Assembly: GCA_903853895.1 (NCBI GenBank)
Contig: CAINUX010000037.1
Coordinates: forward strand, 1 to 45,855
Direction of reading: 5' to 3'
Length of the DNA: 45,855 nucleotides
DNA from: an uncultured beta proteobacterium
GTDB taxonomy: Bacteria > Pseudomonadota > Gammaproteobacteria > Burkholderiales > Burkholderiaceae_C
Positions 181 through 41,264 of the stretch are shown in pieces. Made by a program: the position numbers and the translations under genes. The number at the start of each line of letters is the position of its first letter. Position 1 is the stretch's first letter. Below the pieces are notes generated by a model, which ran no database searches, had not been told where the DNA came from, and saw only the letters and a program-made list of their open reading frames with translations.

Positions 181-588
181 GATGACCGGGACTGAAATTG
201 AATGTCGATTTTTTGGGGTGCCCAAAGTATCGCATTCTGGTTCAATACGCCAGTGGCAGAAAGTTGCCCTGTCTCTGCGGCTAGCACACCGCCATTGGAG
301 CGCTGCTATGACGAAATCCGCGGACGATAGCTGTCTTGAAAATCATGAAACTGGTTTGCCTGCAAGCTGTCCGCTGTGAACGACTGGTACCGCCCCAAAA
401 CCGACTTCGGCGGCCCGGAAAAGTTCCATCGGCAAGAAACTCCATGGCTGAGTAAGTGAGCGTCTTCCACTGACACCTTGAAACTATCAAATACATAGCA
501 GTAGATCCATATTTCACGGGGGCTAGCGGCGGATTTTGCTAGAACAAAATCTACAAACAACCCATCATCACCATTCGCTGACCTGACC
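181..588. other. gene-free stretch between membrane protein and mocR-type gene
   Basis: About 400 bases in which short frames exist on both strands, but none has a ribosome binding site, a recognisable protein or the codon pattern of the neighbours. The only structured element is the repeat copy at 484-537. The left part should hold the promoter of the leftward gene ending at the window edge, but I see no convincing -35/-10 pair there. Confidence 0.5.
484..537 (+). repeat. dispersed repeat copy 1 (GCTA-N9-TAGC family)
   Basis: This copy starts with ACTA, nine bases, TAGC, then exactly 18 bases, GGGGGCTA, and ends with GCGGCGGATT. It is intergenic, about 50 bp past the stop of the leftward regulator gene. 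It shares its internal spacings with the copies at 1748, 8414, 9854, 25161 and 26913. Confidence 0.75.
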
Positions 589-2022
589 TTACTGCTCCGC
601 CCGCAGTCGCTCAAACGTGGTCCAGAACTGCGCATCCTGCGTGGTCGCAAAGTTGATACGCATCAGCGTGCTGGGCTGGCGTTCGGCGTGGAACAGGGCA
701 CCGGGAGCCAGCAGGTAGCCTTCGTCGAGCATGCGCTGGGACAGCGCGTCGGTGTCCACCCCGGTCTCGACCCAGCCAAACAAACCGGCGGGGGGCGATG
801 CAAAGCTGCAGCCATGCGCCAGAGCCAGCTTGACGCTGCGCGCGCGGGCCTGGTCCAGCCGGGTGCGGATGCGCTCGGCGTGGCGGCGCAGCTGGCCCTG
901 GTCTATGCACCAGGCCAGCGCCTTCTCCAACAGCGCGGGCGTGGTCAGGGTGGCCAGCAACTTGGTGTCGACAAAGGCCTCGACCAGTGCCGTGGGTGCC
1001 GCCAGAAAACCCACGCGCCAGCCGGGTGCCAGAATCTTGGCAAATCCGCTGACATAGATGGTGCGCTGCAGCCCATCCAAAGCACACAGGCGCGTGGCGT
1101 GGTCGGGCGCAATGTGGCTGTAGGTATCGTCCTCGACGATGTGGAAGTTGTGGGCATTGGCCAGCTGCAGCACGCGGTGGGCGCTGCCCGGCGTCAGGCA
1201 ATAGCCAGTCGGGTTGTGGAACACGCTGACACTGACAAACAGCTTGGGTGCATGCAGCTCGCAGTAGCGCGCCATCACGTCCAGGTCCGGCCCGTCGGCG
1301 CGCCGCGGCACCGGCAAGATGCGCATGCCTAAGGCGGTCAGGCGGGCAAACTCGATGGCCCAGCCAGGTTCTTCGACCATCACATAGTCCCCGGCACGCA
1401 GCAGCGTGCGGCTGACGATGTCCAGTGCATGCGTGGCACCCACCGTGGTGACGATCTGCGCGGGCGCGGCATGCACGTTGTGCGCCACCAGCTTCTGCGA
1501 CAGGGATTGGCGTAAGCCGCTGTCCCCCGCCGGCTCTCCGTATTGCAGCGAGAGCGATTGCAGCGCAGGGCCGCTGGTGACCTTGCGCACGGCGGCGGGC
1601 ATGAAGCTTGTCTCCAGCCAGTCGGGCGGGAAGACCCCCATGCCGGGCTGCGGCTTGTCAGACCCGCTCTGGAACATGCCGCGGATCAGTGCCGTCGCAT
1701 TCACCGGAACGTGCTGCGCCTGAAAACCTCCCCGGGTAACTGGCGACGCTATAATATTGGTAGCTGCATGGGCAGTGTTTTCGAGGGCTACAGCCAATTC
1801 CCGCACATAGAAACCGCGGTTTTTGCGGGCCTCGACCAGCCCCTGGGCCAACAGCTGGTCGTAGGCCGCCACCACCGTCGACGGACTCACGCCCTGCTGC
1901 TGGGCGCACTGGCGCACCGACGGCAGGCGCGCGCCCGGCGCCAGCAGGCGGGTACGGATGCGCTCGGCAAAACGGGTGCACAACTGCTCGGTGAGCGATT
2001 GCGATGCGGTCTTCATCAACAT
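589..2022 (-). CDS. MocR family transcriptional regulator (GntR-type HTH plus aminotransferase domain)
   Basis: 477-residue regulator with an N-terminal winged helix (about residues 5-72, containing LPSVRQCAQQQGVSPSTVV) joined to a fold-type I aminotransferase domain. The PLP lysine is visible in SGFAKILAPGWRVGF at about residue 329. MocR proteins bind PLP or an amino acid adduct and switch neighbouring transport or metabolic genes. The start at 2022 is chosen because a GAAGG sequence lies six bases upstream; an ATG two codons later is possible, while the longer frame upstream has no support. It is divergent from lysE and eamA type exporter genes, so control of amino acid export is the likely role. 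The linker after the helix-turn-helix (about residues 75-92) overlaps a dispersed repeat copy. Confidence 0.9.
   Translation of the reverse strand: MLMKTASQSLTEQLCTRFAERIRTRLLAPGARLPSVRQCAQQQGVSPSTVVAAYDQLLAQGLVEARKNRGFYVRELAVALENTAHAATNIIASPVTRGGFQAQHVPVNATALIRGMFQSGSDKPQPGMGVFPPDWLETSFMPAAVRKVTSGPALQSLSLQYGEPAGDSGLRQSLSQKLVAHNVHAAPAQIVTTVGATHALDIVSRTLLRAGDYVMVEEPGWAIEFARLTALGMRILPVPRRADGPDLDVMARYCELHAPKLFVSVSVFHNPTGYCLTPGSAHRVLQLANAHNFHIVEDDTYSHIAPDHATRLCALDGLQRTIYVSGFAKILAPGWRVGFLAAPTALVEAFVDTKLLATLTTPALLEKALAWCIDQGQLRRHAERIRTRLDQARARSVKLALAHGCSFASPPAGLFGWVETGVDTDALSQRMLDEGYLLAPGALFHAERQPSTLMRINFATTQDAQFWTTFERLRAEQ
1748..1799 (+). repeat. dispersed repeat copy 2, inside the MocR-type gene (antisense)
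   Basis: GCTA, nine bases, TAGC, 18 bases, GAGGGCTA, then CAGCCAATT. It lies within the leftward regulator gene, so it is read on the opposite strand and encodes about residues 75-92, in the linker between DNA-binding and aminotransferase domains. That linker varies in length and sequence in this family and would tolerate an in-frame insertion. Confidence 0.7.
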
Positions 2023-2130
2023 GGCGGGCCTTCGGTTGTGTCTGTGCTGTTCCAAGCAACCATACAGTTTCCGCCAATGAACGAATAACTGTACTGGTCG
2101 TGTGTTGATTTCAACTATAAAGTCTGTTGC
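2023..2130. promoter_or_regulatory. divergent promoter region with inverted-repeat operator candidate
   Basis: The gap between the divergent MocR-type and lysE-type genes holds TACAGTT at 2063-2069 and its exact inverse AACTGTA at 2087-2093. The flanks extend the symmetry: ACCA before the left arm and CTGGT after the right arm. This is a natural binding site candidate for the MocR regulator, which would control both itself and the exporters. A TATAAA at 2116-2121 is a possible -10 for the rightward genes, with no good -35, as expected for an activated promoter. Confidence 0.55.
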
Positions 2131-2742
2131 ATGACTTGGCAAGAATTTACGGCTTTACTGGTGCTGGCCACGGCGATGAGTTTCACGCCGGGGCCCAACA
2201 CGACCTTGTCCACCGCACTGGCCGCCAACGGCGGTCTGCGCCGCGCGATGCCCTTCGTCTGCGCCGTGCCGCTGGGCTGGGGCGCTCTGCTGCTGGTCTG
2301 CGCCTGGGGCCTGGGCGCACTGGTGCTGGCGCTGCCACTGCTCAACTGGGCGATCAAGATCGTGGGAGTGGCCTACCTGCTGTGGCTGGCCTGGAAGCTC
2401 AGCCAATCCCGTCAACTCAGCGAGGCCAGTGTGGCGGCCCTGACGGTAGGCTTTTGGCAAGGCGTGGCGCTGCAGTTTGTCAACATCAAGGCATGGATGC
2501 TGGCGCTGGCCATTGTCAGCGGCTGGATTGCTGGGCGTGGCGAATCGACGCAACGCCTGGCCATCGTCGTTCCCACCATGCTGGCCTTCGCTTTTGCCAG
2601 CAACCTGCTGTACGCCACCATGGGCTCCCTGCTGCGCGACTGGCTGCGCGGCCCGCAAGGCTCGGGCGAAAGGCTGCGTCTTTTCAACCGCACCATGGCG
2701 CTGGTGCTGCTGGTCACCGCCCTGTGGATGCTGACCCTGTGA
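2131..2742 (+). CDS. LysE/RhtB family amino acid exporter
   Basis: 203-residue inner membrane protein with about six hydrophobic segments. It begins in the way typical of the LysE/RhtB family, with SFTPGPNTTLSTALAANGG near residues 17-34 and an AIKIVGVAYLLWLAWKL segment after it. These proteins export amino acids or their derivatives using the proton gradient. The substrate cannot be read from sequence. No clear ribosome binding site precedes the ATG. Its stop codon overlaps the GTG start of the next gene, so the two are cotranscribed, and the divergent MocR regulator probably controls both. Confidence 0.9.
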   Translation: MTWQEFTALLVLATAMSFTPGPNTTLSTALAANGGLRRAMPFVCAVPLGWGALLLVCAWGLGALVLALPLLNWAIKIVGVAYLLWLAWKLSQSRQLSEASVAALTVGFWQGVALQFVNIKAWMLALAIVSGWIAGRGESTQRLAIVVPTMLAFAFASNLLYATMGSLLRDWLRGPQGSGERLRLFNRTMALVLLVTALWMLTL

Positions 2743-3650
2743 ACCATACGCCGCGCCAGATCAACCAGGGCCTATGGCTGGGCCTGCTGGGCATCGTCAT
2801 TTTTTCGGTGACGCTGCCCATGACGCGTCTGGCGGTGGGCACGCCCGATGCGCCCCAAATGTCGGGCGTCTTCATCGCCATGGGCCGTGCCGTCGTAGCC
2901 GCCGCGCTGTCGGCCATGTTCCTGATGGCCACCCGCGCACCCATGCCCAGCCGCGCGGACTGGCGCCCTTTGGCCATTACCGCCGCCGGCGTGGTGTTTG
3001 GATTTCCACTTTTCACCTCGATTGCCATGCGCTATGTGGAAGCCATGCACGCCAGCGTCATCGTCGGTGTGCTGCCACTGGCCACGGCTGCGGTGGGCGC
3101 GCTGCTGCACCGCCAGCGGCCCTCCACAGGCTTCTGGCTGTGCGCCGCACTGGGCAGCGCGTTGGTGGCAGCCTTTGCCGTGCTGCACTCCAACCCGTCA
3201 TCCGCCAGCACCGCAGAAATATCCATACACGGCGCCGATCTGTTGCTGGTCGCAGCCATGCTGTGCGCCGCCGTGGGCTACGGCTATGGCGCGCGCCTGT
3301 CCCACCATATGCGGGCCGAGCATGTGATTTGCTGGGCCCTGGTGATCGCCCTGCCCTTCACGCTGCCGCTTGCGACCGCCACCTGGCCTGGCGTGCCCAT
3401 GAAGGCCAGCACATGGTGGAGTTTTGGCTACCTCGCAGTGTTTTCCATGTGGCTGGGCTTTTTTGCCTGGTACCGGGGGTTGGCGCTGGGTGGCACGGTG
3501 CGCATCAGCCAGGTGCAATTGGTGCAACCATTCTTGAGCATGCTGTTCGCCGTTCCACTTCTGGGTGAGCAGCTCGATGCGGTGACGGTGGGCTTTGGTG
3601 TCGCGGTGATTGCCACGGTGTTTGTGGGCAAAAAAATGCCGGTTTGGTAG
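2739..3650 (+). CDS. EamA/DMT superfamily transporter
   Basis: 303-residue membrane protein with about ten hydrophobic segments in two repeats, as in drug/metabolite transporters of the EamA type. The first repeat opens with GLWLGLLGIVIFSVTLPMTRL and the second covers about residues 155-300, ending in a QLVQPFLSMLFAVPLLGEQL helix typical of the last EamA helices. The GTG start at 2739 overlaps the upstream stop (GTGA), which marks translational coupling to the LysE-type gene. The pair may export the same or related compounds. Substrate unknown. Confidence 0.88.
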   Translation: MNHTPRQINQGLWLGLLGIVIFSVTLPMTRLAVGTPDAPQMSGVFIAMGRAVVAAALSAMFLMATRAPMPSRADWRPLAITAAGVVFGFPLFTSIAMRYVEAMHASVIVGVLPLATAAVGALLHRQRPSTGFWLCAALGSALVAAFAVLHSNPSSASTAEISIHGADLLLVAAMLCAAVGYGYGARLSHHMRAEHVICWALVIALPFTLPLATATWPGVPMKASTWWSFGYLAVFSMWLGFFAWYRGLALGGTVRISQVQLVQPFLSMLFAVPLLGEQLDAVTVGFGVAVIATVFVGKKMPVW

Positions 3651-3735
3651 GGTCGCTGCGATGTACAAAACACCTTCGCCCTCACCTTGCGTGTCACGTC
3701 AGGATTTGCGCCTTTCGCTTACACACCTCTGGCCT

Positions 3736-3809
3736 GCCGGAGTGGGCATGGCAACGGCCCTCATATTGCGGGTACGCAGAAATCGGGCCATTGCCTCACC
3801 CACCCCGGC
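3736..3809 (+). repeat. imperfect hairpin element, copy L
   Basis: A 74-base imperfect palindrome centred on a GGTA loop (3771-3774). From the loop outward: TTGCG/CGCAG stem (one T-G pair), a 5-by-5 internal loop TCATA/AAATC, a GGCCC/GGGCC stem, then a longer outer stem with a few mismatches. The central 31 bases (3759-3789) match the reverse complement of 3879-3909 with two differences. Confidence 0.75.
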
Positions 3810-3857
3810 GAGTATGGGCGATGCGGTTCGCCGCCATGAAACCAACACCCCGCGCTG

Positions 3858-3933
3858 CAAGGGATTGGGGGGTGCCGGGGTCCGATTTCTGCGTACCCGC
3901 AGTATGAGGACGCCGGCATACCCCAATCCCTTG
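3858..3933 (-). repeat. imperfect hairpin element, copy R (inverted)
   Basis: A 76-base imperfect palindrome in opposite orientation to the copy at 3736. The outer arms 3858-3878 and 3913-3933 are 21 bases each with two mismatches. The inner stem pairs GTCC (3880-3883) with GGAC (3908-3911) around the same TCATA/AAATC internal loop and a perfect CTGCG/CGCAG stem. Where its sequence differs from the other copy, pairing is mostly kept by changes on both arms. Confidence 0.75.
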
Positions 3934-4013
3934 CCCCCACAATCTGTGGTGCGCACCGTATTGACACAGAACCCCGGACAATCAACAACCACAAAGCAAA
4001 GAGGACCAGACCG

Positions 4014-5216
4014 ATGAAACCCAACGACCTCCCCACCACGCCCTGGACCATGGCCCGCCGCGCCGCGCGCATGAACCCGTCGGTGATCCGCGAAATTCTT
4101 AAAGTCACAGAGAAGCCCGGCATCATCAGCTTCGCCGGTGGGCTGCCCTCCAGCAAGACTTTTCCGGTCGCCGAATTCACCGCCGCCTGCGCCCAGGTGC
4201 TGGGCAAGGACGCACAGGCTGCGCTGCAATACGCCTCCAGCGAAGGCTTTGCACCGCTGCGCGAGATGGTGGCCGCGCGCCTGCCGTGGGACGTGGACCC
4301 TGCACAGGTGCTGATCACCACCGGCTCGCAACAGGGGCTGGACCTGGTGGCCAAAATCCTGATTGACGCCGACAGCCGCGTGCTGGTGGAAACACCCACC
4401 TACCTGGGCGCGCTGCAGGCCTTCACCCCGATGGAGCCCGAGATCATCAGCGTGGCCAGTGATGACGAAGGCGTGGACATTGCAGACCTGGCCAGCAAGG
4501 TTGGCAGCGGTGCCAACAAGGCGCGCTTCCTGTACGTGCTGCCCAATTTCCAGAACCCCACCGGCCGCACCATGACCGAGGCGCGCCGCGCCGCGCTGGT
4601 GGCCAAGGCTGCCGAGCTGGGCCTGCCGCTGGTCGAGGACAACCCCTATGGCGATTTGTGGTTTGACACCCCGCCACCGGCGCCGCTAACCGCGCGCAAC
4701 CCCGAAGGCAGCATCTACCTGGGCTCGTTCTCCAAGGTGCTGGCACCGGGCCTGCGTCTGGGTTTTGTCGTGGCCCCCACGGCCATGTACCCCAAGCTGC
4801 TGCAGGCCAAGCAGGCCGCCGACCTGCACAGCCCGGGCTTCAACCAACGCATGATCACCGAGGTGATGCAGGGCGGCTTTCTGGACCGCCACATTCCGAC
4901 CATCCGCGCGCTGTACAAAGGCCAGCGCGACGCCATGCTGGCCGCACTCAAAAAAGACATGCCTGCCGACGTGACCTGGAATTCGCCCGATGGGGGCATG
5001 TTCCTGTGGGCGCGTTTGCCCGAGGGCATGAACGCGCAGGACCTGCTGCCCAAGGCCGTGGACAAAGGCGTGGCCTTTGTGCCGGGTGCGGCCTTTTACA
5101 ACGACCACGCCGACCCGCGCACCATGCGGCTGTCGTTTGTGACGCCCGATGGCGATGAAATCCGCAAGGGCGTGGCTGCGCTGGCTGCGGCCATTGCCGA
5201 GCACCGCAAGGCCTGA
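4014..5216 (+). CDS. PLP-dependent aminotransferase, class I/II (LysN-like)
   Basis: 400-residue fold-type I aminotransferase. The PLP lysine is at about residue 241 in GSFSKVLAPGLRLGF, preceded by NFQNPTGRTM and VEDNPYGDL, the asparagine and aspartate motifs that hold the cofactor. It has no DNA-binding domain. The opening (PWTMARRAARMNPSVIREIL, then ISFAGGLPSSKTFP) is like 2-aminoadipate and broad-range aminotransferases, so it should transfer an amino group from an amino acid to 2-oxoglutarate. AGAGGA about ten bases upstream supports the ATG. It is the first gene of a six-gene operon running to 9869. Confidence 0.92.
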   Translation: MKPNDLPTTPWTMARRAARMNPSVIREILKVTEKPGIISFAGGLPSSKTFPVAEFTAACAQVLGKDAQAALQYASSEGFAPLREMVAARLPWDVDPAQVLITTGSQQGLDLVAKILIDADSRVLVETPTYLGALQAFTPMEPEIISVASDDEGVDIADLASKVGSGANKARFLYVLPNFQNPTGRTMTEARRAALVAKAAELGLPLVEDNPYGDLWFDTPPPAPLTARNPEGSIYLGSFSKVLAPGLRLGFVVAPTAMYPKLLQAKQAADLHSPGFNQRMITEVMQGGFLDRHIPTIRALYKGQRDAMLAALKKDMPADVTWNSPDGGMFLWARLPEGMNAQDLLPKAVDKGVAFVPGAAFYNDHADPRTMRLSFVTPDGDEIRKGVAALAAAIAEHRKA

Positions 5217-5218
5217 CC

Positions 5219-5884: not shown

Positions 5885-5900
5885 ACGCAAGAACTTAACC

Positions 5901-8188: not shown

Positions 8189-8208
8189 AACACGAACACT
8201 GACACGCC

Positions 8209-8910
8209 ATGCACCCCGCCCCTGCCGCACCAACCGCACCCACGCTGGACCACCTCGTGGTCATGGCGACCAACCTCGACGACGGTGTGGCCTGGTGCGA
8301 GGCCACGCTGGGCGTAACGCCCGGCCCCGGTGGCGAACACCCGCTGATGGGCACGCACAACCGCCTGCTGAAGATCGCCACACCCGATTTTCTCACTGCC
8401 TATCTGGAAATCATTGCTATCAATCCAGTAGCTGCATCGCCATTACCGGCGAGGGCCAGACGCTGGTTTGACATGGACGATCCGGCGCTGAAGGCACGTG
8501 TCGCGCAGCTGGGGCCGGCGCTGGTGCATGCCGTAGTCAGCGTGACCGACATCCGCACCGCCGTGGCCGCTCTGGGCGCACAAGGCCTGGACCGGGGCGA
8601 GGTGCTGCAGGCCTCTCGCCCCACCGACCGCGGCCTGTTGCAGTGGCAGATCACCGTGCGCCCGGATGGCCAGCGGCTGTTCGACGGCTGTCTGCCCACG
8701 CTGATCCAGTGGGGGCCCACGCACCCCACCGACCACATGCCGGCCAGCGGCGTGACCCTGCACAGCCTGCGCGTGCAGCACCCCCAGGCCGACACGCTGC
8801 GTGCTGCCTACCGGGGCACGGGCTGGACCACGCAGGCGGTCGACACCGGTGCGCCCCGGCTGATCGCAACTTTGCAAACCCCCAAGGGACTCATCGAGAT
8901 CACCACATGA
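8209..8910 (+). CDS. VOC (glyoxalase-like) domain protein
   Basis: 233 residues resembling the Glyoxalase-3-like VOC family: LDHLVVMATNLDDGVAWCEATLGV at residues 13-36 starts the first babb unit, followed by GTHNRLLKI and YLEIIAIN. These proteins are often annotated only as glyoxalase-like, and the reaction is unknown. The gene sits 20 bases after the MATE stop and overlaps the next start by four bases. Residues about 70-84 are encoded by a stretch that matches a dispersed repeat, with AT-rich codons (GCT ATC AAT) unlike the rest of the gene. Confidence 0.85.
   Translation: MHPAPAAPTAPTLDHLVVMATNLDDGVAWCEATLGVTPGPGGEHPLMGTHNRLLKIATPDFLTAYLEIIAINPVAASPLPARARRWFDMDDPALKARVAQLGPALVHAVVSVTDIRTAVAALGAQGLDRGEVLQASRPTDRGLLQWQITVRPDGQRLFDGCLPTLIQWGPTHPTDHMPASGVTLHSLRVQHPQADTLRAAYRGTGWTTQAVDTGAPRLIATLQTPKGLIEITT
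8414..8460 (+). repeat. dispersed repeat copy 3, inside the VOC gene
   Basis: GCTA, nine bases, TAGC, 18 bases, then GAGGGCCA. The spacings equal those of the other copies, although the last part is more diverged. It is read in frame as residues about 70-84 of the VOC protein, starting at the GCT of the repeat, the same frame used by the two copies in dsbD. Natural VOC proteins have similar residues here, so chance resemblance is not excluded. Confidence 0.55.
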
Positions 8911-9869
8911 ACCTGCCCAGCCTGCACGACATCGAAGACGCGGCCCAAGTGGTCTACCGCGAATTTGCCGCCACACCCCAATACGCATGGGGCCTGCTAG
9001 GCCAGAAGCTGGGCGCCACCTGCTGGCTCAAGCACGAAAACCACACGCCGGTGGGCGCCTTCAAGATTCGCGGCGGCCTGACCTATTTCGACCAGTTGGC
9101 AAGGTCCGGCACCTTGCCCCAGGAGGTCATCAGTGCCACACGCGGCAACCACGGCCAGAGCATTGGCTGGGCGGCGCGCGCCCACGGCGTGGCCTGCACC
9201 ATCGTCGTGCCGCACGGCAATTCGGTGGAGAAGAACGCCGCCATGCGCGCGCTGGGCGTGACGCTGATCGAGCATGGCAGCGACTTCCAGGAAAGCCGGG
9301 AGCACGCCATGGCGTTGGCCGCAGACCGCGGCGCCCACATGGTGCCCAGCTTCCACGTCAACCTGCTGCGCGGTGTGGCCACCTACTGGTGGGAGCTGTT
9401 CAAGGCCGTGCCCGAACTGGACGTGGTCTATGTGCCCATTGGCCAGGGCTCGGGCGCCTGCTCGGCCATCATTGCGAAGCGGGCGTTGGGCCACAAGGCC
9501 CGCATCGTCGGTGTGGTCAGCGCCCACGCCACCACCTACGCGGATTCGCTGGCGGCCGGTCGCGTGGTGGAGGCCCCTGTGACCACGCTGTTGGCCGATG
9601 GCATGGCCTGCCGCGTGGCCGATGCCGAGGCGCTGGCCATCCTGCAAGGCAACATCGACCACATCGTGCAGGTGACCGACCTTGAGGTGGCCCAGGCCAT
9701 GCGCGACATCTTTGCCTGCACCCACAACGTGGCCGAAGGTGCTGGTGCCGCGGCCTTTGCTGCGGCGATGCAGGAACGTGAGCAGTTGAAGGGCCAGACC
9801 GTGGGCCTGGCGCTTAGTGGCGGCAATGTGGATAGCGCCATGTTCGCCAACGTGCTACACAATCAATAG
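8907..9869 (+). CDS. threonine/serine dehydratase-like PLP enzyme (fold type II)
   Basis: 320-residue enzyme of the tryptophan synthase beta/threonine dehydratase superfamily. The PLP lysine is Lys53 in PVGAFKIRGG, followed by SATRGNHGQSIGWAA, the phosphate- and substrate-binding loop, and GQGSGACSA as the glycine-rich cofactor-phosphate loop. Such enzymes deaminate threonine, serine or modified hydroxy amino acids such as hydroxyectoine products. No ACT regulatory domain is present, which fits a catabolic type. It is the last gene of the operon starting at 4014, and its stop codon lies inside a dispersed repeat copy. Confidence 0.88.
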   Translation: MNLPSLHDIEDAAQVVYREFAATPQYAWGLLGQKLGATCWLKHENHTPVGAFKIRGGLTYFDQLARSGTLPQEVISATRGNHGQSIGWAARAHGVACTIVVPHGNSVEKNAAMRALGVTLIEHGSDFQESREHAMALAADRGAHMVPSFHVNLLRGVATYWWELFKAVPELDVVYVPIGQGSGACSAIIAKRALGHKARIVGVVSAHATTYADSLAAGRVVEAPVTTLLADGMACRVADAEALAILQGNIDHIVQVTDLEVAQAMRDIFACTHNVAEGAGAAAFAAAMQEREQLKGQTVGLALSGGNVDSAMFANVLHNQ

Positions 9870-9909
9870 CTACATATTCATTATCCACGAGGGCTTGCGC
9901 CGAATTTTC
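9854..9909 (+). repeat. dispersed repeat copy 4, at the end of the dehydratase gene
   Basis: GCTA, nine bases, TAGC, 18 bases, GAGGGCTT, then GCGCCGAATT. It begins inside the last codons of the dehydratase gene and its first TAGC overlaps the TAG stop codon. The rest lies in the short gap to the convergent sensor kinase gene. Confidence 0.75.
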
Positions 9910-12388: not shown

Positions 12389-12410
12389 CCGATGCGTATG
12401 AAGAGGTATT

Positions 12411-12528
12411 CAGGCCCTGTTTATAGCCCCGCGAACCTGAACGGCAGATGAACGCAGAGTTCACCTTCTGTTCAGTTCACCCCAAGCATAGTCGCTCCCA
12501 TGTTCACTGTTCTTAGGAGTCCTCCATG
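12411..12528. promoter_or_regulatory. divergent promoter copy 1 with paired TTCA boxes
   Basis: Two direct-repeat boxes face away from each other: on the reverse strand GTTCAT then GTTCAG (12453-12437), on the forward strand GTTCAC then GTTCAG (12459-12475). In each, the second TTCA lies 16 bases before a -10-like hexamer: TATAAA leftward (12425-12420) and CATAGT rightward (12487-12492). TAGGAG at about 12514 and an ATG at 12526 follow. The arrangement fits an OmpR-type dimer activating both directions. The 118 bp recur at 17827-17944 with 13 differences and no gap. Confidence 0.7.
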
Positions 12529-12573
12529 CCATTGATGCAAAAGCGGCCCATTAGGCAGTACTTCCACAATTGA
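12526..12573 (+). pseudogene. 15-codon frame at the duplicated start site
   Basis: The ATG and its TAGGAG binding site belong to the duplicated 118-bp region, where in the second copy they start the SHP-like cytochrome gene. Here the sequence changes right after the ATG and the frame ends after 15 codons. It is best read as the leftover start of a gene displaced by the inserted segment. It might still be translated as a leader peptide, but nothing in it suggests a function. Confidence 0.4.
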
Positions 12574-17576: not shown

Positions 17577-17826
17577 ATAGTTGCCCCCTTGACGGACAGG
17601 AAATTCAACCGCATGAGACAAGGTGTGGCATGGGTTTTTGGGCGGAGAACTACCGCGGTTTCCCGAAACCTGAGCTGAAGCAGCTGCTCGCTGGCCGCAA
17701 GTCGACCTTTGGCCTGCCACACAGGCAAGCCGCTGCGCGTCATAGCGTTCCGACATCGGCGGGCCACGCGCCGGGGCAATATGCGGTGAGGGAGTGACAT
17801 CAGATCCATTCGGATCAAGGGGCATC
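17577..17826. other. gene-free stretch with possible gene remnant
   Basis: Together with the duplicated promoter this leaves 365 bases without a credible gene. A forward frame from about 17628 to 17797 (ATGGGTTTTTGGGCG onward) has coding-like codons but no ribosome binding site and no recognised family. It may be the tail or start of a broken gene at the right boundary of the inserted segment. Confidence 0.4.
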
Positions 17827-17944
17827 CAGGCCCTGTTTATAGCCCCGCGCACCTGAACGGGAGATGAACGCGGGATTCACTTTGTGTTCAGTTAACCCCA
17901 AGCATAGTCGCTCCCACATTCACTGTTTTTAGGAGCCCACCATG
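17827..17944. promoter_or_regulatory. promoter copy 2 with paired TTCA boxes
   Basis: Second copy of the 118-bp region at 12411-12528. The rightward box (ATTCAC at 17875, GTTCAG at 17886) precedes a CATAGT -10 at 17903-17908 and TAGGAG before the ATG at 17942, so it should drive the cytochrome operon under control of the OmpR-type regulator. The leftward box and -10 (TATAAA on the reverse strand, 17841-17836) are also kept, although no leftward gene lies next to it. That is a sign of duplication. Confidence 0.7.
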
Positions 17945-18364
17945 CATCTGAACCGCACCATCCCCGCTCTGCTGGCCTGTGCAGCCATCTTGTTGTCCGG
18001 CGCAGCCCAAGCCGGTGTGCGCGAAGACCAGTTGGCCCAATACGCCAGCGCCGCCAAGGCGGAAACACCCGGCTTTGTCGGGTTCTCGGCCGAACGCGGC
18101 AAGACCCTGCACACCCAAACCTTTACCGGGGGCAAGCCCGACACCCCCGCCTGCACCTCCTGCCACGGCAAGGACCCACGCGGCACCGGAAAAACCTCCA
18201 CTGGCAAATCTATCGACGCCATGGCCACCTCGGTGACCCCAACCCGCTACACCGACCCCGCCAAGGTGGAGAAATGGTTCAAGCGCAACTGCACCGAAGT
18301 GCTGGGCCGCGTCTGCACGCCGCAGGAAAAGGGCGACTGGCTGACCTTCATGCTGGGCCAATAG
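17942..18364 (+). CDS. SHP-like / DUF1924 monohaem cytochrome c
   Basis: 140 residues with a cleavable signal peptide (LLACAAILLSGAAQA-GVR) and one haem site, CTSCHGKDPRGTG, followed by a domain matching DUF1924. This is the family of sphaeroides haem protein, a small cytochrome whose haem can bind oxygen or other ligands. In other bacteria its gene neighbours a dihaem cytochrome and a membrane cytochrome b gene. The same arrangement occurs here, which supports the call. TAGGAG precedes the ATG. It is the first gene of the operon driven by the second promoter copy. Confidence 0.85.
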   Translation: MHLNRTIPALLACAAILLSGAAQAGVREDQLAQYASAAKAETPGFVGFSAERGKTLHTQTFTGGKPDTPACTSCHGKDPRGTGKTSTGKSIDAMATSVTPTRYTDPAKVEKWFKRNCTEVLGRVCTPQEKGDWLTFMLGQ

Positions 18365-22372: not shown

Positions 22373-22376
22373 CAAG

Positions 22377-25090: not shown

Positions 25091-27367
25091 ATGACCCACG
25101 CACTACAGACCCCACGGCGCCAACAGACCGCCCCGCAAACGCATTCCATCCCACTTCGAGTTGCTATTTTTTTAATAGCTTCGTGCGCAATATTGACGGG
25201 GGCTAGAGCCCAGATTCTTTTAAAGAACTCCGCCCCGAACAGTGCTGTGACGGCGGTCGTTCAAACCGACCAGGTCCGCGCCGAGCTGGTGGCCCATGCG
25301 CCCGATGGCGTGGCCGCCGGCAAGACGGTGTGGTTGGGGCTGCAAATTCGGCACCAACCGCAGTGGCACACCTACTGGAAGAACCCCGGAGACTCCGGCC
25401 TACCTACCATTCTGCAATGGAGTCTGCCGGCGGGCGTGGCGGCCGGCGACATCGCCTGGCCGACACCGCACCGCATTGCCATCGGCAACCTGGCCAACTA
25501 CGGGTTTGACGGCACGGTACTGTTGCCGGTGCCCCTGACCGTCGACAAGTCTTTTCAGCCATCGGCCAGCGGCACGCTCGACATCCGCCTGAGCGCATCG
25601 TGGCTGGTCTGCCGCCAGGAATGCATCCCGCAGGAGGGCAACTTCGTCTTGCATGTACCGGTGCAGGGTTCCACCGCGTCCCATGGTGCCGATTTTGACG
25701 CAACGCGCACCGCCAGCCCCCAGGCTTTGGCCGGGTCCGCCCAGGCCAAGGTCTCCGGTGACGCCCTGATCCTGACGGTCAACGGTCTGCCCGCCAGCTG
25801 GAGCGGGCGCGCCCTGCAGGCGTTTCCGGAAACCCCCAATGTGACTGAGCCCGTCAGCTCGCCGCAGACCGCCGATGCGGTGGCCAGCAATGCCACCGCC
25901 CCCAAGCTGGGCACCCAGGCGTGGAACAACGGTGTGTGGACGGGGCATTTTCCGCTTTCCGCACAGCGCGAATCGGCGCACGACACGCTGCCCATGGTGC
26001 TGGCCTTGGGCGCACAGAGCCTGCGCACCGTGGCCGCCGTCAGTGGTGCCTGGCCCGCGCTGGGTGCATCCGGCGCACCGCAAGCTCTTCCAACCAGCCC
26101 CGCCAACGCAAGCGTCCCCGCGGCAGCCAGCACCGACACCGGCTGGGGCGCCTGGGGCCTGGCCCTGGTCGCCGCAGTTCTGGGCGGCCTGATCCTGAAT
26201 CTGATGCCCTGTGTGCTACCGGTGCTGGCCATCAAGGTGTTGGGCTTTGCCCGCCACAGCGAGCACAGCCGTGGGTCGCAACGCGCCCAGGGGCTGGCGT
26301 ACACGCTGGGTGTGGTGCTGTCCTTTGTGGCGCTGGGCGGCCTGATGCTGGGCCTGCGCGCCAGTGGCGAACAACTGGGCTGGGGCTTTCAACTGCAATC
26401 ACCGGCCGTAGTGGCGGTGCTGGCCACTTTATTCACGCTTCTGGGCCTGAACCTGGCAGGTCTGTTTGAAATCGGCAGCGTGCTGCCACACCAGCTGGCG
26501 TCCATGCAGGCCCGCCACCCGGTGGTGGATGCCTTTCTATCCGGCGTGCTGGCGGTGGCCGTTGCTTCTCCGTGCACGGCCCCTTTCATGGGCGCATCGC
26601 TGGGGTACGCCATCAGCCTACCGGCCGCGCAGGCACTAGGCATCTTCGCGGCTCTGGGGCTGGGACTGGCGCTGCCGTTTCTGGCCGCCGCCTGGGTACC
26701 CGCGGTCGGAAACTGGTTGCCCCGCCCCGGCGCCTGGATGGACACCATGCGGCGCTTTATGGCGTTCCCCATGCTGGCCACGGTAGTCTGGCTGGTCTGG
26801 GTGCTGGGCCATTTGAGCGGTGTGGATGGGGCCGGCGCCCTGCTGGCACTGCTGCTGACGCTGAGCCTTGTGGTCTGGTCGCTGAACCTGACCGGTACCA
26901 GTCGTACCGGTTTCGCTATTGTTTCAGTAGCGGCTCTGGCAGGTTTGACGGGGGCTATCGGCCCATTGGTCACACGCATGGAGGACATGGGCACGCTCTC
27001 GACCTCCAGTGCACCGAGCGGCACGGCGTCCGCCTGGCAGGCCTGGACACCCGGGCGGGTCGAGGCTGAGCTGGCCGCAGGCCATCCGGTGTTCGTCGAC
27101 TTCACTGCCGCCTGGTGCATCACCTGCCAGTACAACAAGAAAACCACACTGAGCAATGCCGACGTGTTAGCGGACATGCGCGCCCACCAGGTGACCTTGC
27201 TGCGCGCCGACTGGACGCGCCGTGACCCGGCCATCACCCTGGCTTTAGAACAGCTCGGGCGCAGCGGTGTGCCGGTCTACGTGCTGCACCAGGCCGGGCG
27301 GCCACCCGTGGTGTTTTCGGAAATTCTGGACAAACAGGAAGTGCGTGCAGCCATTGCCAAGCTTTAG
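25091..27367 (+). CDS. dsbD: thiol:disulfide interchange protein DsbD (ScsB-like)
   Basis: 758 residues. A signal peptide (hydrophobic core 24-35, cleavage near ARA40-Gln41), a periplasmic DsbD N-terminal-type domain (about 55-330, opening with WHTYWKNPGDSGLP), a membrane domain with NLMPCVLPVLAIKVLGFARH and ASPCTAPFMGASLGYAI carrying the two redox cysteines, and a C-terminal thioredoxin domain with Cys676 and Cys679 in AAWCITCQ. DsbD passes electrons from cytoplasmic thioredoxin to periplasmic targets and supports cytochrome c assembly, fitting the many c-type cytochromes in the window. Two dispersed repeat copies lie inside the gene, one encoding the signal peptide core and one a late membrane helix (about 609-626). 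Confidence 0.93.
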   Translation: MTHALQTPRRQQTAPQTHSIPLRVAIFLIASCAILTGARAQILLKNSAPNSAVTAVVQTDQVRAELVAHAPDGVAAGKTVWLGLQIRHQPQWHTYWKNPGDSGLPTILQWSLPAGVAAGDIAWPTPHRIAIGNLANYGFDGTVLLPVPLTVDKSFQPSASGTLDIRLSASWLVCRQECIPQEGNFVLHVPVQGSTASHGADFDATRTASPQALAGSAQAKVSGDALILTVNGLPASWSGRALQAFPETPNVTEPVSSPQTADAVASNATAPKLGTQAWNNGVWTGHFPLSAQRESAHDTLPMVLALGAQSLRTVAAVSGAWPALGASGAPQALPTSPANASVPAAASTDTGWGAWGLALVAAVLGGLILNLMPCVLPVLAIKVLGFARHSEHSRGSQRAQGLAYTLGVVLSFVALGGLMLGLRASGEQLGWGFQLQSPAVVAVLATLFTLLGLNLAGLFEIGSVLPHQLASMQARHPVVDAFLSGVLAVAVASPCTAPFMGASLGYAISLPAAQALGIFAALGLGLALPFLAAAWVPAVGNWLPRPGAWMDTMRRFMAFPMLATVVWLVWVLGHLSGVDGAGALLALLLTLSLVVWSLNLTGTSRTGFAIVSVAALAGLTGAIGPLVTRMEDMGTLSTSSAPSGTASAWQAWTPGRVEAELAAGHPVFVDFTAAWCITCQYNKKTTLSNADVLADMRAHQVTLLRADWTRRDPAITLALEQLGRSGVPVYVLHQAGRPPVVFSEILDKQEVRAAIAKL
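25161..25220 (+). repeat. dispersed repeat copy 5, encoding the DsbD signal peptide
   Basis: GCTA, nine bases, TAGC, 18 bases, GGGGGCTA, then GAGCCCAGATT. The first part is a perfect hairpin (GCTATT and AATAGC around TTTTT); the last part holds GGGCT and AGCCC facing each other. It is read in the frame that starts at the GCT and encodes the hydrophobic core and AxA-type cleavage site of the DsbD signal peptide. Confidence 0.8.
26913..26968 (+). repeat. dispersed repeat copy 6, encoding a DsbD membrane helix
   Basis: GCTA, nine bases, TAGC, 18 bases, GGGGGCTA, then TCGGCCCATT. It encodes about residues 609-626 of DsbD in the same reading frame relative to the repeat as the copy at 25161. The product is hydrophobic and forms the last membrane helix before the thioredoxin domain. 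Confidence 0.75.
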
Positions 27368-29107: not shown

Positions 29108-29230
29108 AAAACAGGGAAGCTCCTTCTGTCTGGGCCTTTGTGGCAGCGATCGGCGCTATGAATCCCATAGCGTCTGTAAGTCGTTGATTCATAAGGATTT
29201 CAAACTTTGCTTTTTTTGTGGGCATTCCAG

Positions 29231-33242: not shown

Positions 33243-33347
33243 AGTGGAGTAGTGGTTTGCGCCACTGTAACGCAAAGCGAAACCGAAGACCTGCGCATCT
33301 ATCAGGACGCAAGGGGGTTGGACTGAAGTGGCTCAAACCCTCTGGAC

Positions 33348-33376
33348 TTGCAGGAACCACAGCGAATACATACTAT
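33348..33376 (+). promoter_or_regulatory. sigma-70-like promoter of the binding protein gene
   Basis: TTGCAG (33348-33353) and TACTAT (33371-33376) are separated by exactly 17 bases and stand about 20 bases before the ATG at 33397, with GGAGG between. It is one of the better promoter matches in the window. Confidence 0.55.
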
Positions 33377-33396
33377 GTGCACTGGAGGCTTCCTTG

Positions 33397-34158: not shown

Positions 34159-34183
34159 CGCCGCAAGCAGCGCTGATCTGGCG

Positions 34184-37373: not shown

Positions 37374-38998
37374 GGCGTGTGGGTGGAAGTGGGGTTGGAC
37401 GCGGGCGCAGGTAGCAGCTTGCCGGGGTTCATCATGCCTTCGGGGTCGAAGTGCAGGAAAAGGCTGCGCATGGCCGACAAGCCCAGCGGGCCTTTCTCGG
37501 CCTCCAGATACGGCGCGTGGTCCAGCCCAACACCGTGCTGGTGGCTGATGGTGCCGCCATTGGCCACAATGGCCTTGCACACCGCTGTCTTCAGGCTGCG
37601 CCAGCGGGCCAGGTCGGTCCCATAGTCGCCAGAAAGGCGGTAGGCAAACGTGGTGTACACGCTGGCCCCTTGGGCATAGACGTGGGACAGGTGGGTGTAG
37701 GTGTGCACGCGCTCGCCACTCTGTGCCAGCGCATGCGTGGCGGCACTTTCCATGGCCAGCATCATGGGCGTCACGCGGGGCCAGTCGCAGGCGGTTTCCA
37801 CTGTGTCGATGGCGTACCCCTTGAGCCACAACGAATTGCGCAAGTAGACGTTGCGAAACCGATTCTCTTTCCACTTCTTGCCCATGGCCTGCCCGATGGC
37901 GACCCCTTGATGGCTGCGTGCAATGCGTTGGGCGCTCTTGAGCGCATGGGCCACGGTATCGCTCTGGCCCGTGGCACCAATCATCAGCATGCATTTCTGG
38001 TCTTTGCAACCGCGCCAGGCCAGGTAGCGCTCCAGCAGACCGATGAGGGTCTTGTGCCCAGCCATTGTCAGCGTGGTCAGCGTCTCCACCGGGTTGGACA
38101 GGCGCAGCATGGACAGTGGCAGCTTGGCCTGCACGATGGAGCGCACGGCTGCTTGCGCCTGCTCCCAGCTGGGGAAAAACAAGGTGTGGAACTCTTCGCG
38201 CTGCGGCAGTGGTGTGATACGCACCGTGGCTTCGGTCAGGATGCCGATGCGCCCCTCCGAGCCCAGCACCATTTCGCGCAAGTCCGTGCCCGCCGCCGAG
38301 GCCGGAAACGTGGCCACATTCAGCGTCCCCACGGGTGTCTCGACCGTGCCTCCGGCGAACAACTGCTCGATGCGGCCGTAGCGCAGCGACTGCTGGCCCG
38401 ATGAGCGCGTGACCACCCAACCGCCCAGCGTGGAGTATTCAAACGACTGCGGAAAATGCCCCAGCGTGTAGCCCTGCGCCCGCAATTGCGCCTCCAGGTC
38501 CGGGCCCAGCACGCCAGCGCCAAAGGTGGCCAGCTGGGCCTGGCGGTCCAGGTTGATCAGGCCGCACAGACGCGACAAGTTGATGGTCAGCACAGCCTGC
38601 CCGCCTTCGGGCACCGTCAGGTGGCCGACGACGCTGGTGCCGCCGCCCATGGGAATTACAGCCGCGCCGCAGGCTGCAGCGTAGTGCAGCAAGGCCCGAA
38701 CCTGTTCGCCATTTTCGGGAAAAGCCACGCCGTCGGTCACCACGCCCACCTTGCCGCTGCGCATCTTCAACCAGTCGGGCAGGCTGTGGCCCAGGCTGTT
38801 GCGCATGCGGGTCTCGGCTCGGGTGTCGACCAACGGATGGGCCGGCAAGCGGCTTGGCGGTATGCCGGCACAGGCCTGTGCCAGGGTCGCATCTGCCGAT
38901 GGTACGCCGGCGCCGATGCGCTGCTCCAGAAACTGCATGGCCTCCGCAGGCAGGACCAGTTCTATCGCATCGTCACCCCAGCCATTCCAGCGCTTCAT
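37370..38998 (-). CDS. FAD-binding oxidase, alkyldihydroxyacetonephosphate synthase-like
   Basis: 542 residues of the PCMH-type FAD family. The FAD-binding domain includes IPMGGGTSVVGHL and FPQSFEYSTLGGWVVTRSSGQQSLRYGRIEQL, and the C-terminal part ends in SHQHGVGLDHAPYL and FDPEGMMNPGKLL, as in alkyl-DHAP synthases and glycolate/lactate oxidase subunits. Alkyl-DHAP synthase makes ether lipids; bacterial relatives beside glpD and a polyol kinase may instead oxidise a hydroxy acid or sugar acid. The ATG at 38998 has AGGAGA upstream and is preferred over upstream in-frame starts. It is the first gene of the operon, divergent from an AraC regulator. Confidence 0.88.
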   Translation of the reverse strand: MKRWNGWGDDAIELVLPAEAMQFLEQRIGAGVPSADATLAQACAGIPPSRLPAHPLVDTRAETRMRNSLGHSLPDWLKMRSGKVGVVTDGVAFPENGEQVRALLHYAAACGAAVIPMGGGTSVVGHLTVPEGGQAVLTINLSRLCGLINLDRQAQLATFGAGVLGPDLEAQLRAQGYTLGHFPQSFEYSTLGGWVVTRSSGQQSLRYGRIEQLFAGGTVETPVGTLNVATFPASAAGTDLREMVLGSEGRIGILTEATVRITPLPQREEFHTLFFPSWEQAQAAVRSIVQAKLPLSMLRLSNPVETLTTLTMAGHKTLIGLLERYLAWRGCKDQKCMLMIGATGQSDTVAHALKSAQRIARSHQGVAIGQAMGKKWKENRFRNVYLRNSLWLKGYAIDTVETACDWPRVTPMMLAMESAATHALAQSGERVHTYTHLSHVYAQGASVYTTFAYRLSGDYGTDLARWRSLKTAVCKAIVANGGTISHQHGVGLDHAPYLEAEKGPLGLSAMRSLFLHFDPEGMMNPGKLLPAPASNPTSTHTP

Positions 38999-39034
38999 AT
39001 CGATCTCCTGTGCATTCGGGTGCAGCATCCGATT

Positions 39035-39057
39035 GCTACACTGGACGCCACTGTAGC
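39035..39057. promoter_or_regulatory. palindromic operator candidate between oxidase and araC-type genes
   Basis: GCTACACTGG (39035-39044) and CCACTGTAGC (39048-39057) are inverted with one mismatch around ACG. The site lies 37 bases from the oxidase start and 52 bases from the AraC-type start, and TACACT within it resembles a -10. It could be the binding site through which a regulator controls both directions. AraC proteins usually bind direct repeats, so another regulator is possible. Confidence 0.45.
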
Positions 39058-39108
39058 CACCCCCGCCCGCGGTGTATTGCGCTTTCATGACAAAGAGCTT
39101 GTTCCATC

Positions 39109-40164
39109 ATGCCAACCCGCGACTTCGCCACGTCTAGCCCCTCGGGCGGCCGGGTGGCGGGCGCGTACGTGCAACCGCTGCTGGAGCTGGCCGTGGAGCG
39201 CGGTGTGGGCTTGGCGGCATTGGCCGTTGCCGCCGGTTTGCCTGAAGACGCGCTGTCCCCCATGCCCGAATCCCTGGCCGCCGCAGACTATGTGCGCCTG
39301 CTGGATGCGGGCGCCGAGCTGGCCCGCCACCCGCACTTTGGCCTGCACGTGGGGGAGCGGGTCAAACTCGGGACCTACAGCGTCTATGGTCTGATCCTGC
39401 TGAGCTGTCGCGACCTGGGACAAGCCTTTGCACAAACTCTGCGCTATGAAAGCCTGGCACATGATCTGGGCCGCTCCGAGCTGGGCGTGCAGGATGGCAC
39501 CGCCCATTACCAATGGCACAGCCACTTTCCACATGCCAGCCGCCACCTGGCCGAGAGCGTGTTCGCCGGCGTGCGCGTGTTCGGCAACTGGCTGGCCGGC
39601 ACGCCCTTGCCCGCGGCACCGGTGTCCTTCACCCATGGCGCCCCGGCCGACGTCAGCGAACACCACCGCCTGTTTGGGCCGGATGTGGAGTTTGGCGCCA
39701 GCACCAATTGCGCCCGCTTCGATGCGGCGCTGCTAGCCCTGCCCGTTCCCAATGCCGATGTCGGGCTATACCCGGTATTGCAGCAGCATGCCGAACAGCT
39801 GCTGCAGAAGAAATTGCGCGTGCAGGGCGAAGCGGGAATCGTGGCCCTGGTGCGGGCCAGCATCGCCAGCCACCTGGCGCAAGACAGTGCCAGTCTGACC
39901 CGGATCGCTCAGGATGCAAACCTGTCACCGCGCACGCTGCAACGCAAGCTCAGCGACGCAAACACCAGCTTTCAGCAGCTGCTGGACCAGACGCGCCAGG
40001 CGCTGGCGCAAGGGTATTTGCTGCGTCCCGACTTAAGCCTCGCCGACATTGCATTTCTGCTGGGCTACCAGGACCAGAGCGCGTTCAACCATGCGTTCAG
40101 AGAGTGGACGGGCGGCAGCCCGGGCAGTTACCGAGAGAGGCGCGGACAACCCGGGGCGGTCTGA
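39109..40164 (+). CDS. AraC family transcriptional regulator (OruR/VirS-like)
   Basis: 351 residues. The N-terminal part is of the Arabinose_bd type (LGTYSVYGLILLSCRDLGQAF), and the C-terminus holds the double helix-turn-helix: LTRIAQDANLSPRTLQRKLSDANTSF (first motif, near residues 263-288) and LSLADIAFLLGYQDQSAFNHAFREW (second motif). Regulators with this plan respond to small metabolites and usually activate a neighbouring catabolic operon. Being divergent from the oxidase-glpD-kinase operon makes that operon its likely target. Confidence 0.92.
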   Translation: MPTRDFATSSPSGGRVAGAYVQPLLELAVERGVGLAALAVAAGLPEDALSPMPESLAAADYVRLLDAGAELARHPHFGLHVGERVKLGTYSVYGLILLSCRDLGQAFAQTLRYESLAHDLGRSELGVQDGTAHYQWHSHFPHASRHLAESVFAGVRVFGNWLAGTPLPAAPVSFTHGAPADVSEHHRLFGPDVEFGASTNCARFDAALLALPVPNADVGLYPVLQQHAEQLLQKKLRVQGEAGIVALVRASIASHLAQDSASLTRIAQDANLSPRTLQRKLSDANTSFQQLLDQTRQALAQGYLLRPDLSLADIAFLLGYQDQSAFNHAFREWTGGSPGSYRERRGQPGAV

Positions 40165-40181
40165 CGGGACTTGCACCCTTT

Positions 40182-41153
40182 TTAGGTCATCAGGGCCACG
40201 GCACTGGCGAAGGTAAAAAACGCCGCCGCGGTGGACACCAGAATGATGCGCGCAATGCGCCCGTTGTCGGCGCCAAAGCGTTCGGCCAGCAGGGACACGT
40301 TGCTGGCGCTGGGCAGTGCCGACAACAGCACCAGCACTGTCAGGGCAAAACGGTCCAGCGGCACGCCCATCTGGATGGCGCCCGCCCCCACCAGCAAGAC
40401 CAGCAAGGGGTGCAAAAAGAGTTTGATAGCGGCCACCGGCACCACTTCCATCCAGTGCACGGGGTGGGCCTCACCGGACTGCGCCATCAACTGGGAACGC
40501 GCCAGCACCGCACCAATGGTAAACAACGCCACCGGCGAGGCCGAATCGGCGAGCAGCCCCACGGTCTGCACGACGGGCTTGGGCAAATCCAGTTGCAAGG
40601 CCGACACCACGGCACCCAACAAAATGGACCAGGGCATGGGGTTGGTGGCCACGCCCTTGAGGGCATTTTTGGCGGCCTGCCCGGCCGATGAGCCCTCACC
40701 ACCATCCCCATCCAACCGTGACAGTGCAATGCACAAGGATGTGGTGATCACCATGTCGACCAGAATCGTGACGATTGCTGGCCCGGCAGCCTTGGGGCCC
40801 AACAAGGCGACCAAAAGGGGCACCCCCATAAAACCGGTATTGGGAAAGGCGCCGACCAGGGCACCAAAGGCAGCATCATTCCAGCCAATGCGCCCGTGCC
40901 GCGTCACTGCCACGACAAAGCCCACCATGACCAGCGCACACGCGAGGTAGGTCAGCGCCACATGGGGGTCCAGCAACTGCGCAATCGGCGTGCTGGCGCC
41001 AAAGCGGTACAGCATGCACGGCAATGCGAAAAACAACACAAAGCTGTTCAGCCCGGGGATGGCAGCCATGGGCAACATGCCCCGGCGTGCGGCCACAAAG
41101 CCACACAGGACCAGCGCGAAAAAAGGAAAGGTGACGGTAAGGATTTGCAGCAC
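40182..41153 (-). CDS. AEC family transporter
   Basis: 323 residues with about ten hydrophobic segments, opening with LQILTVTFPFFALVLCGFVAARRG and containing FGALVGAFPNTGFMGVPLL, as in the auxin efflux carrier family. Bacterial members move malate, malonate or other small organic acids. The GTG at 41153 gives the usual family N-terminus; an ATG at 41210 would add 19 polar residues before it, and neither has a good binding site. It converges on the AraC-type gene and is divergent from rep. Confidence 0.87.
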   Translation of the reverse strand: MLQILTVTFPFFALVLCGFVAARRGMLPMAAIPGLNSFVLFFALPCMLYRFGASTPIAQLLDPHVALTYLACALVMVGFVVAVTRHGRIGWNDAAFGALVGAFPNTGFMGVPLLVALLGPKAAGPAIVTILVDMVITTSLCIALSRLDGDGGEGSSAGQAAKNALKGVATNPMPWSILLGAVVSALQLDLPKPVVQTVGLLADSASPVALFTIGAVLARSQLMAQSGEAHPVHWMEVVPVAAIKLFLHPLLVLLVGAGAIQMGVPLDRFALTVLVLLSALPSASNVSLLAERFGADNGRIARIILVSTAAAFFTFASAVALMT

Positions 41154-41213
41154 GGGTGGATTGTCCGGTATTTTTGACGCCCCACTGGACTTCAATGCAC
41201 AAGAATGCACTCC

Positions 41214-41264
41214 TATTATGATAGCTAACTAGTTAGCATTTACGAGGGCTAGAGGCCATTTTTA
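41214..41264 (+). repeat. dispersed repeat copy 7 (shortened)
   Basis: GCTAACTAGTTAGC is a perfect 14-bp palindrome replacing the usual GCTA-N9-TAGC, only six bases follow instead of 18, and then GAGGGCTA and GAGGCCATT as in the other copies. It lies in the gap between the divergent AEC-type and rep genes, near their promoters. Confidence 0.6.

Follow-up and report, generated by a model that had tools for sequence, protein, structure and literature searches.

A numerous family of species-spelled repeats of about 60 bp, within and outside genes, in a Comamonadaceae genome and its relatives

Seven copies of a repeat of about 60 bp lie in the 45,855 nucleotides of contig CAINUX010000037.1 (assembly GCA_903853895.1, from an uncultured beta proteobacterium), a stretch referred to below in its entirety as the window. 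The repeat family, first noticed in an initial annotation of this DNA, is confirmed: it is abundant in the source genome (G000; 4,686,225 b, 4.69 Mb, in 292 contigs), and it differs in spelling between related species (the other G numbers; L numbers denote sampled stretches). We infer that the copies form a single family of recognition sites dispersed over the genome, in which the DNA is what is recognised, and neither an RNA nor a peptide. The best reading of the analysis, which we put forward tentatively, is that the element may mark self DNA much as uptake sequences do and may have been spread by molecular drive.

Six copies, all on the plus strand, follow the pattern [G/A]CTA-N9-TAGC-N18-GRGGGCYW from positions 483 (ACTA), 1748, 8416, 9854, 25163 and 26915, and the 9- and 18-base spacing originally described for them is exact throughout. 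The starts first given as 8414, 25161 and 26913 mark the right sites with two leading bases counted in. The seventh copy had been described as shortened; it is a full unit in register at 41207-41262 with the same spacing and a degenerate first arm (ACTCC for GCTAY). The conserved unit spans about 56-64 bp, with a framework of approximately TTGCTAY-N2-WWW-N2-RTAGC ... CA ... ACGAGGGCTAGMGGC..ATTT. Genes were called with a home-made codon-model script after masking the elements, and the called gene starts are rough because of that script. The copies and the gene that hosts two of them are as follows.

481..536, + strand: element copy 1, core positions -2 to 53, first arm ACTAT, non-coding by the home-made gene calls
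1746..1801, + strand: element copy 2, antisense in a MocR-type gene (589-2022, - strand), located in the linker that follows the GntR domain (residues 11-73)
8414..8469, + strand: element copy 3, sense, frame 0, in a glyoxalase-like (VOC) gene (8209-8910, Pfam)
9852..9907, + strand: element copy 4, whose TAGC contains the TAG (9867-9869) that terminates the gene at 8907-9869
25091..27367, + strand: dsbD, the gene that contains copies 5 and 6
25161..25216, + strand: element copy 5, sense, frame 0, encoding AIFLIASCAILTGARA near the DsbD N terminus
26913..26968, + strand: element copy 6, sense, frame 0, encoding the hydrophobic DsbD stretch AIVSVAALAGLTGAIG
41207..41262, + strand: element copy 7, intergenic, with the degenerate first arm

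The names DsbD and dehydratase (for 8907-9869) are putative, given by recognition of the sequences without a family search, and the residues encoded by copy 5 appear, in our reading, to be signal-peptide-like. The overlaps with coding sequence proposed at the outset (MocR antisense, VOC sense, dsbD sense twice, and the stop codon at the end of the dehydratase gene) all hold. Copy 5 was counted as intergenic in the placement figures below, the gene caller having set the start at 25247 and the open frame beginning at 25091, and is truly coding.

A genome scan for further copies had been named beforehand as a possible refutation of the family as more than chance. The exact pattern with a GCTA head occurs 231 times in G000 (114 + 117) and not once in the reversed control, an over-representation far beyond chance and of the kind that marks DNA uptake sequences (DUS), and a more stringent pattern, allowed as many as 3 mismatches, gives 539 matches (262 + 277; control 1). 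A position matrix covering positions -2 to 53, iterated from 43 exact training copies, was applied to the window and 40 stretches of 20 kb on contigs with at least one exact match, together 845,855 bases. It found 103 copies at every threshold from 10 to 18 and none in the reversed control; one copy was dropped for a missing flank, leaving 102 for analysis. If the sampled density holds, G000 carries about 570 copies, a figure that may be high because the sampled contigs were already known to carry an exact match. The 102 copies with full flanks score from about 24 upward and none falls between background and about 22, so that the family is a discrete one in G000. Among the matrix matches in G003, 5 of 113 score below 24, and 80 public dsbD loci gave 90 matches with scores from 10 up (control 0), the low scores being partly dialect mismatch. 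Mean pairwise identity of the 102 copies is 55% with a maximum of 82%, and at so low a maximum there has been no recent expansion. An isolated head, GCTATGAATCCCATAGC, stands without a tail at window positions 29155-29171 and is probably there by chance.

The second possible refutation, that the same DNA recurs at these sites through protein conservation only, does not describe dsbD, where rare ATA and GCT codons are kept. Among 81 frames (the 80 public loci and the window), the isoleucine at RTA is coded ATA in 33/37 cases at dsbD site 1 and 33/45 at site 2, against 5.8% elsewhere in the gene. Comparison column by column is the fairer control, binomial P values ignoring phylogeny. In the 20 DsbD columns with at least 30 isoleucines, the three highest ATA shares (0.89, 0.73 and 0.22) all belong to columns at element sites, and the best of the 17 others reaches 0.18; among 93 alanine-rich columns, the six highest in GCT all lie at element sites. 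The element DNA itself is constrained at the dsbD sites.

Conservation extends to orthologous places elsewhere. Between G000 and G003, 15 of 20 comparable copies are common to both, with the same relative orientation in 15/15. In these shared copies the framework cells agree in 381/435 (88%) and the variable cells in 116/210 (55%), against a baseline of 0.73 and 0.32 among non-orthologous G000 copies, and the gapless flanks agree in 551/900 and 534/900. The eight shared copies in genes have a framework agreement of 0.88 with flanks at 0.72 and 0.74, and the seven not fully in genes have 0.87 with flanks at 0.49 and 0.42, these being lowered by indels. The five G000 copies without a G003 counterpart are L133 16178, L134 2556, L137 8496 and, in the window, copies 1 (481) and 4 (9852); no copy was found at the projected G003 place of either, and for copy 1 the left flank there is not alignable. 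In the reverse comparison 5 of 20 G003 copies lack a G000 counterpart. At the site that corresponds to the MocR copy, an element is present in G003, G009, G015, G007, G001, G020 and G041, and none was recognised in G014, G018 and G006. The VOC gene copy is matched in G003 and G012, with a flank-to-flank length of 70 in all. Copy 7 has a counterpart in G003; the head pattern finds none in G012, G015, G041, G046, G001 and G007, and the right-hand DNA differs in G009.

Each species appears to have its own spelling. A pattern with a free middle (positions 18-22 free, C or T at 23, GCA fixed at 24-26) finds 400 copies in G009 and 218 in G041, with no matches in controls. In matrices built from 20 zero-mismatch copies of each genome, the first listed, those of G009 have TCCCGCA at positions 20-26 in 19/20 cases, and those of G041 have GTGCA at positions 22-26 in 16/20. 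In G000 and G003 the middle is loose, and the tail is CGAGGGCTA in 46/102 and 82/108 copies, respectively, a uniformity that is partly built in because the matrix was trained on GRGGGCYW-type copies. The G009 copies in the region syntenic with the window carry CCCGCA in 4/4 cases, and the MocR copy of G009 scores 28.5 by its own matrix against -5.2 (G000), -10.8 (G003) and 8.5 (G041); the MocR copies of the close pair G000 and G003 are not distinguished by the two matrices. At dsbD site 1 of G009 the element is spelled GCTGCTCCCGCACTATCCACGGGCTCTA and the encoded residues change accordingly. Species dialects thus also respell orthologous coding copies, and DNA uptake sequences are likewise spelled by species, a likeness that rests for G009 and G041 on matrices from 20 selected copies each.

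A first survey with the strict pattern found the element in 12 of 25 genus members and in none of 16 genomes of other families. A sequence-only model, R1 (49 copies, at most 36 candidates scored per genome), found a match in 57/150 genomes of the family at E 0.001, and records of Rhodoferax, Polaromonas and Acidovorax are among those that carry it at the dsbD sites. Counts by a single spelling range from 0 to 291 across the genus. These genome and family scans bear out the early claim of a numerous Comamonadaceae family with fixed spacing, often located in genes. In a viral collection 4 stretches match the G000-type pattern, a count for one dialect with no denominator of suitable hosts.

The frequency of copies in genes raises the possibility that the element codes for a peptide module that enters proteins as an in-frame insertion. 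Rickettsia palindromic elements are repeats of this type, located within reading frames. Wholly within called genes are 39 of the 102 copies, and 28 of these 39 occupy two frames (13 sense in frame 0, 15 antisense in frame 1), as such a module might. The favoured frames are, by our reading of the consensus, those that the framework would leave free of stops; the 39 copies are balanced between sense (18) and antisense (21), and 63 of 102 copies lie outside genes or at an edge (26 across a gene edge and 37 between genes, one of them, window 25161, really coding). In three copies, L115 8293, L122 11366 and L150 16702, a called gene begins within the element, in antisense at element position 13.

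Length comparison at six coding sites found no added length at four, an ambiguous case in MocR and extra residues at one. Both DsbD stretches are equally long in G006 and G018, where the element is not recognised and the codons are ordinary. The MutL copy covers AAINSIADCAILSRANGQS and aligns without gaps to a solved MutL, where the closest gap, of two residues, comes immediately after the copy, and the acyl-CoA ligase copy also aligns gapless. The MocR linker between flanks measures 70 nt in G000 and 61 to 88 elsewhere, whether or not the element is present. In tRNA nucleotidyltransferase the copy begins on the RRDLTIN motif, and the protein exceeds a solved relative by 9 + 9 residues, located at the copy and behind it. 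An insertion may therefore have occurred in this one enzyme. The suggestion of a module within proteins is otherwise mostly unsupported: at dsbD (twice), MutL and acyl-CoA ligase no residues are added and native ones are replaced at constant length, unlike the in-frame insertions of Rickettsia palindromic elements. The peptide-module reading is mostly refuted, and we regard it as very improbable.

Inverted arms (GCTA/TAGC and GGC/GCC) are present in the copies, and the initial annotation had taken them for two small hairpins. An RNA element or hairpin acting as a terminator, processing site or regulatory structure would fit these arms and the scarcity of copies between divergent genes: intergenic density is 3 in 24.6 kb (0.12/kb) for divergent, 26 in 53.7 kb (0.48) for tandem and 8 in 19.9 kb (0.40) for convergent pairs. 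The 102 copies show no covariation in the head arms (pair 3:13, P 0.91; pair 4:12, P 0.49), and the strongest dependencies are between near neighbours, chiefly at positions 26-32 and 51-53. The two proposed hairpins pair in 76.3% of cells against 77.2% in shuffles, RNAalifold on 49 copies predicts 0 consensus pairs, and Rfam gives no match at gathering score in the window. The hairpins were rejected on mutual information, pair counts and RNAalifold, and with the balanced orientation within genes we consider an RNA function the least probable of all the readings discussed here, with hardly any claim to be correct.

Copies are seldom close together in G000 and G003. No interval of 84 in G000 is shorter than 860 b (8.3 expected; the shortest is 862 b) and one exceeds 20 kb (6.9 expected), and in G003 two of 78 are below 860 b (593 and 638 b; 10.1 expected). 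The window pairs 483/1748, 8416/9854 and 25163/26915 hint at a preferred distance of 1-2 kb, which we do not claim because intervals above 860 b are nearly exponential. The element-free 20-kb stretches L126, L129 and L151 were considered as possible sites of special or foreign gene content, a notion that was dropped: 9 of 10 scanned proteins matched Pfam families of ordinary enzymes, transporters and similar, and one was unmatched. Replication polarity was also set aside, the relation to GC skew being weak (P 0.03); of the 31 plus-strand copies in DNA of negative skew, 7 come from the window.

A second, smaller motif accompanies a minority of copies.

41285..41297, no strand assigned: companion dyad ACCCAAAATGGGT, position +76 of copy 7

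Of the 102 G000 copies, 9 are followed by the dyad ACCCA-N3-TGGGT, which lies at +76 in seven of them and at +75 and +86 in the other two; in G003 it follows 2 of 108 copies, both times at +76. The dyad suggests that more than one protein takes part in the complex on the DNA, whether the element serves uptake or chromosome structure.

In the main rival reading, a protein that structures or segregates the chromosome binds the element, which is conserved as a DNA anchor, and the dialects arise from co-evolution with that protein. The dyad head GCTAY-N7-RTAGC, whose halves vary independently, resembles a protein-dimer site; orthologous places are kept with unchanged orientation, the G000 intervals avoid both extremes, and the companion dyad keeps mostly to +76, the case at +86 being about one helical turn further. 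Joint respelling of hundreds of sites, in genes too, would be hard to achieve by site-by-site selection, members of a single genus carry anything from no copies to several hundred, and the GC-skew relation is weak. We judge this rival unlikely, though not markedly so.

The dispersal of hundreds of copies in both orientations, rarer between divergent genes, might also be that of an ancient non-autonomous mobile repeat resembling repetitive extragenic palindromic (REP) sequences or miniature inverted-repeat transposable elements (MITE), mostly immobile now, with the framework kept for movement. Some copies lie within sequence missing from a relative, and one enzyme has extra residues. The low identity among the 102 copies speaks against a recent burst. 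Against a mobile repeat there is also the gap in G000 scores between background and about 22, although G003 has 5 of 113 matches below 24 and scores in relatives start from 10, partly through dialect mismatch; and four coding sites show no added length. The REP elements that accompany REP-associated tyrosine transposases (RAYT; PMC3733652) are likewise short dispersed repeats with inverted parts; the present element differs in having no covarying hairpin by any of the three measures above, no near-identical copies and no correlation with Y1_Tnp. A single Y1_Tnp (RAYT-like) gene is present in G000 (L031, C106:20281-20607). The family occurs in 29/31 genus genomes irrespective of elements, element-free ones included, so that no associated RAYT was identified and mobilisation by one was rejected. 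We regard a mobile origin as improbable.

There remains the uptake-type site, which we rank first because the sites are shared and spelled by species, often lie in tolerant places and are rarely close in G000 and G003, and because sequence-specific transformation is known in Comamonadaceae (PMC4212676, in the portion cited). A species-specific DNA receptor of the transformation machinery would bind the site of about 56 bp on incoming DNA, and self DNA would thereby be preferred. Repeated import and recombination would then spread and homogenise the receptor's favoured spelling at many places by molecular drive, and the spreading spelling would overwrite tolerant coding stretches in place. In all, we infer binding of the element by a protein, a context of DNA uptake, and spread by recombination.

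Several observations weigh against an uptake site. The element is conserved over about 56-64 bp where DUS measure some 9-12 bp, and it holds far more information than about 570 sites require; at around 1 copy per 8 kb it is also sparse relative to DUS. Close pairs occur elsewhere, at 339 b in G015 (L165) and 359 b in G007, and dsbD site 2 in G009 is only partly in dialect. Copy 7 sits in 166 b against 30 b in G046 by our count, and two of the five G003 copies without a G000 counterpart lie in DNA that is missing from G000; both observations look like insertion or deletion and not respelling. ComEC, taken as a proxy for the uptake machinery, is present in 26 of 31 genus genomes, G000 included, and is no commoner with the element: it occurs in 10/14 genomes with at least 20 copies, 2/2 with 1-3 copies and 14/15 with none. 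Searches with Pfam and tblastn find no ComEC in G041 (99% complete, 218 copies) or in G012, and G020 (C257) and G045 (C404) have it only as short fragments, which are contig breaks or decayed genes. With no association across the 31 genomes, ComEC was rejected as the matching trans-factor.

Comparison with known systems is limited here to the portions of the papers cited, with PMC5217627 used more fully for the motif pairs below. The DUS of Neisseriaceae form dialects that are conserved within species and follow phylogeny (PMC3630211), and DUS are commonest in permissive parts of the core genome, often arising via recombination (PMC2397512). The element is like them in being abundant, in occurring within and outside genes at orthologous places that are kept, and in being uniform within a species and different between species. 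Unlike it, their sequences are of about 10-12 bp (9-11 bp in PMC4212676) and number thousands per genome, against 56-64 bp and some 570 here, and their receptor, ComP, is known. The element also differs in having no link to ComEC across the 31 genomes. Uptake sequences are relatively evenly distributed in H. influenzae (PMC7811141), and the element shares with the uptake signal sequences (USS) of Pasteurellaceae a core with extended flanking positions and perhaps, judging by the few close neighbours in G000 and G003, a relatively even spacing (PMC7811141, PMC5217627); the 9-bp USS consensus AAGTGCGGT differs in being of unrelated sequence and without a dyad head.

Closer to the present family, transformation of Verminephrobacter eiseniae is sequence specific and requires type IV pili, and Acidovorax temperans is transformed by same-species DNA only; the cited portion of PMC4212676 names no uptake sequence for either. 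Two motif pairs, GCTTAT(N)5AAGCG in Acidovorax ebreus (114 copies) and ATAGCT(N)22CAAAAG in Polaromonas naphthalenivorans (125 copies), were given in 2017 without function among motifs chosen as mostly intergenic (PMC5217627), in a section that describes neither the full unit nor dialects. Judged by sequence and place, they are probably parts of the element in other dialects. The cited portion of PMC2755013 mentions palindromes only in its section on clustered regularly interspaced short palindromic repeats (CRISPR) and in one reference. A literature search found no paper naming the element as an uptake or recognition sequence, which does not establish its absence from print.

In the papers cited here, as far as their cited portions go, a genome-wide uptake repeat is reported for Neisseriaceae and Pasteurellaceae only, and in Comamonadaceae sequence-specific transformation has been measured with its signal unnamed (PMC4212676). 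It is possible, and we say so with some reserve, that the element is an unrecognised self-recognition signal of about 60 bp in Comamonadaceae, whose dialects rewrite conserved proteins such as DsbD and set barriers to gene exchange between species. If the element is that signal, the gap is directly testable and the dialects predict which species exchange DNA; the signal would also be longer than the uptake sequences in the cited papers. Whatever the function, concerted evolution is strongly indicated by hundreds of dispersed 60-base sites that are spelled by species even within coding sequence, and rare codons or odd residues in Comamonadaceae proteins should be read with the warning that they may be dictated by DNA.

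The window also contains two direct repeats, one of 138 nt with 86% identity (12392-12529 and 17808-17945) and one of 68 nt with 75% identity (44353-44420 and 44922-44989).

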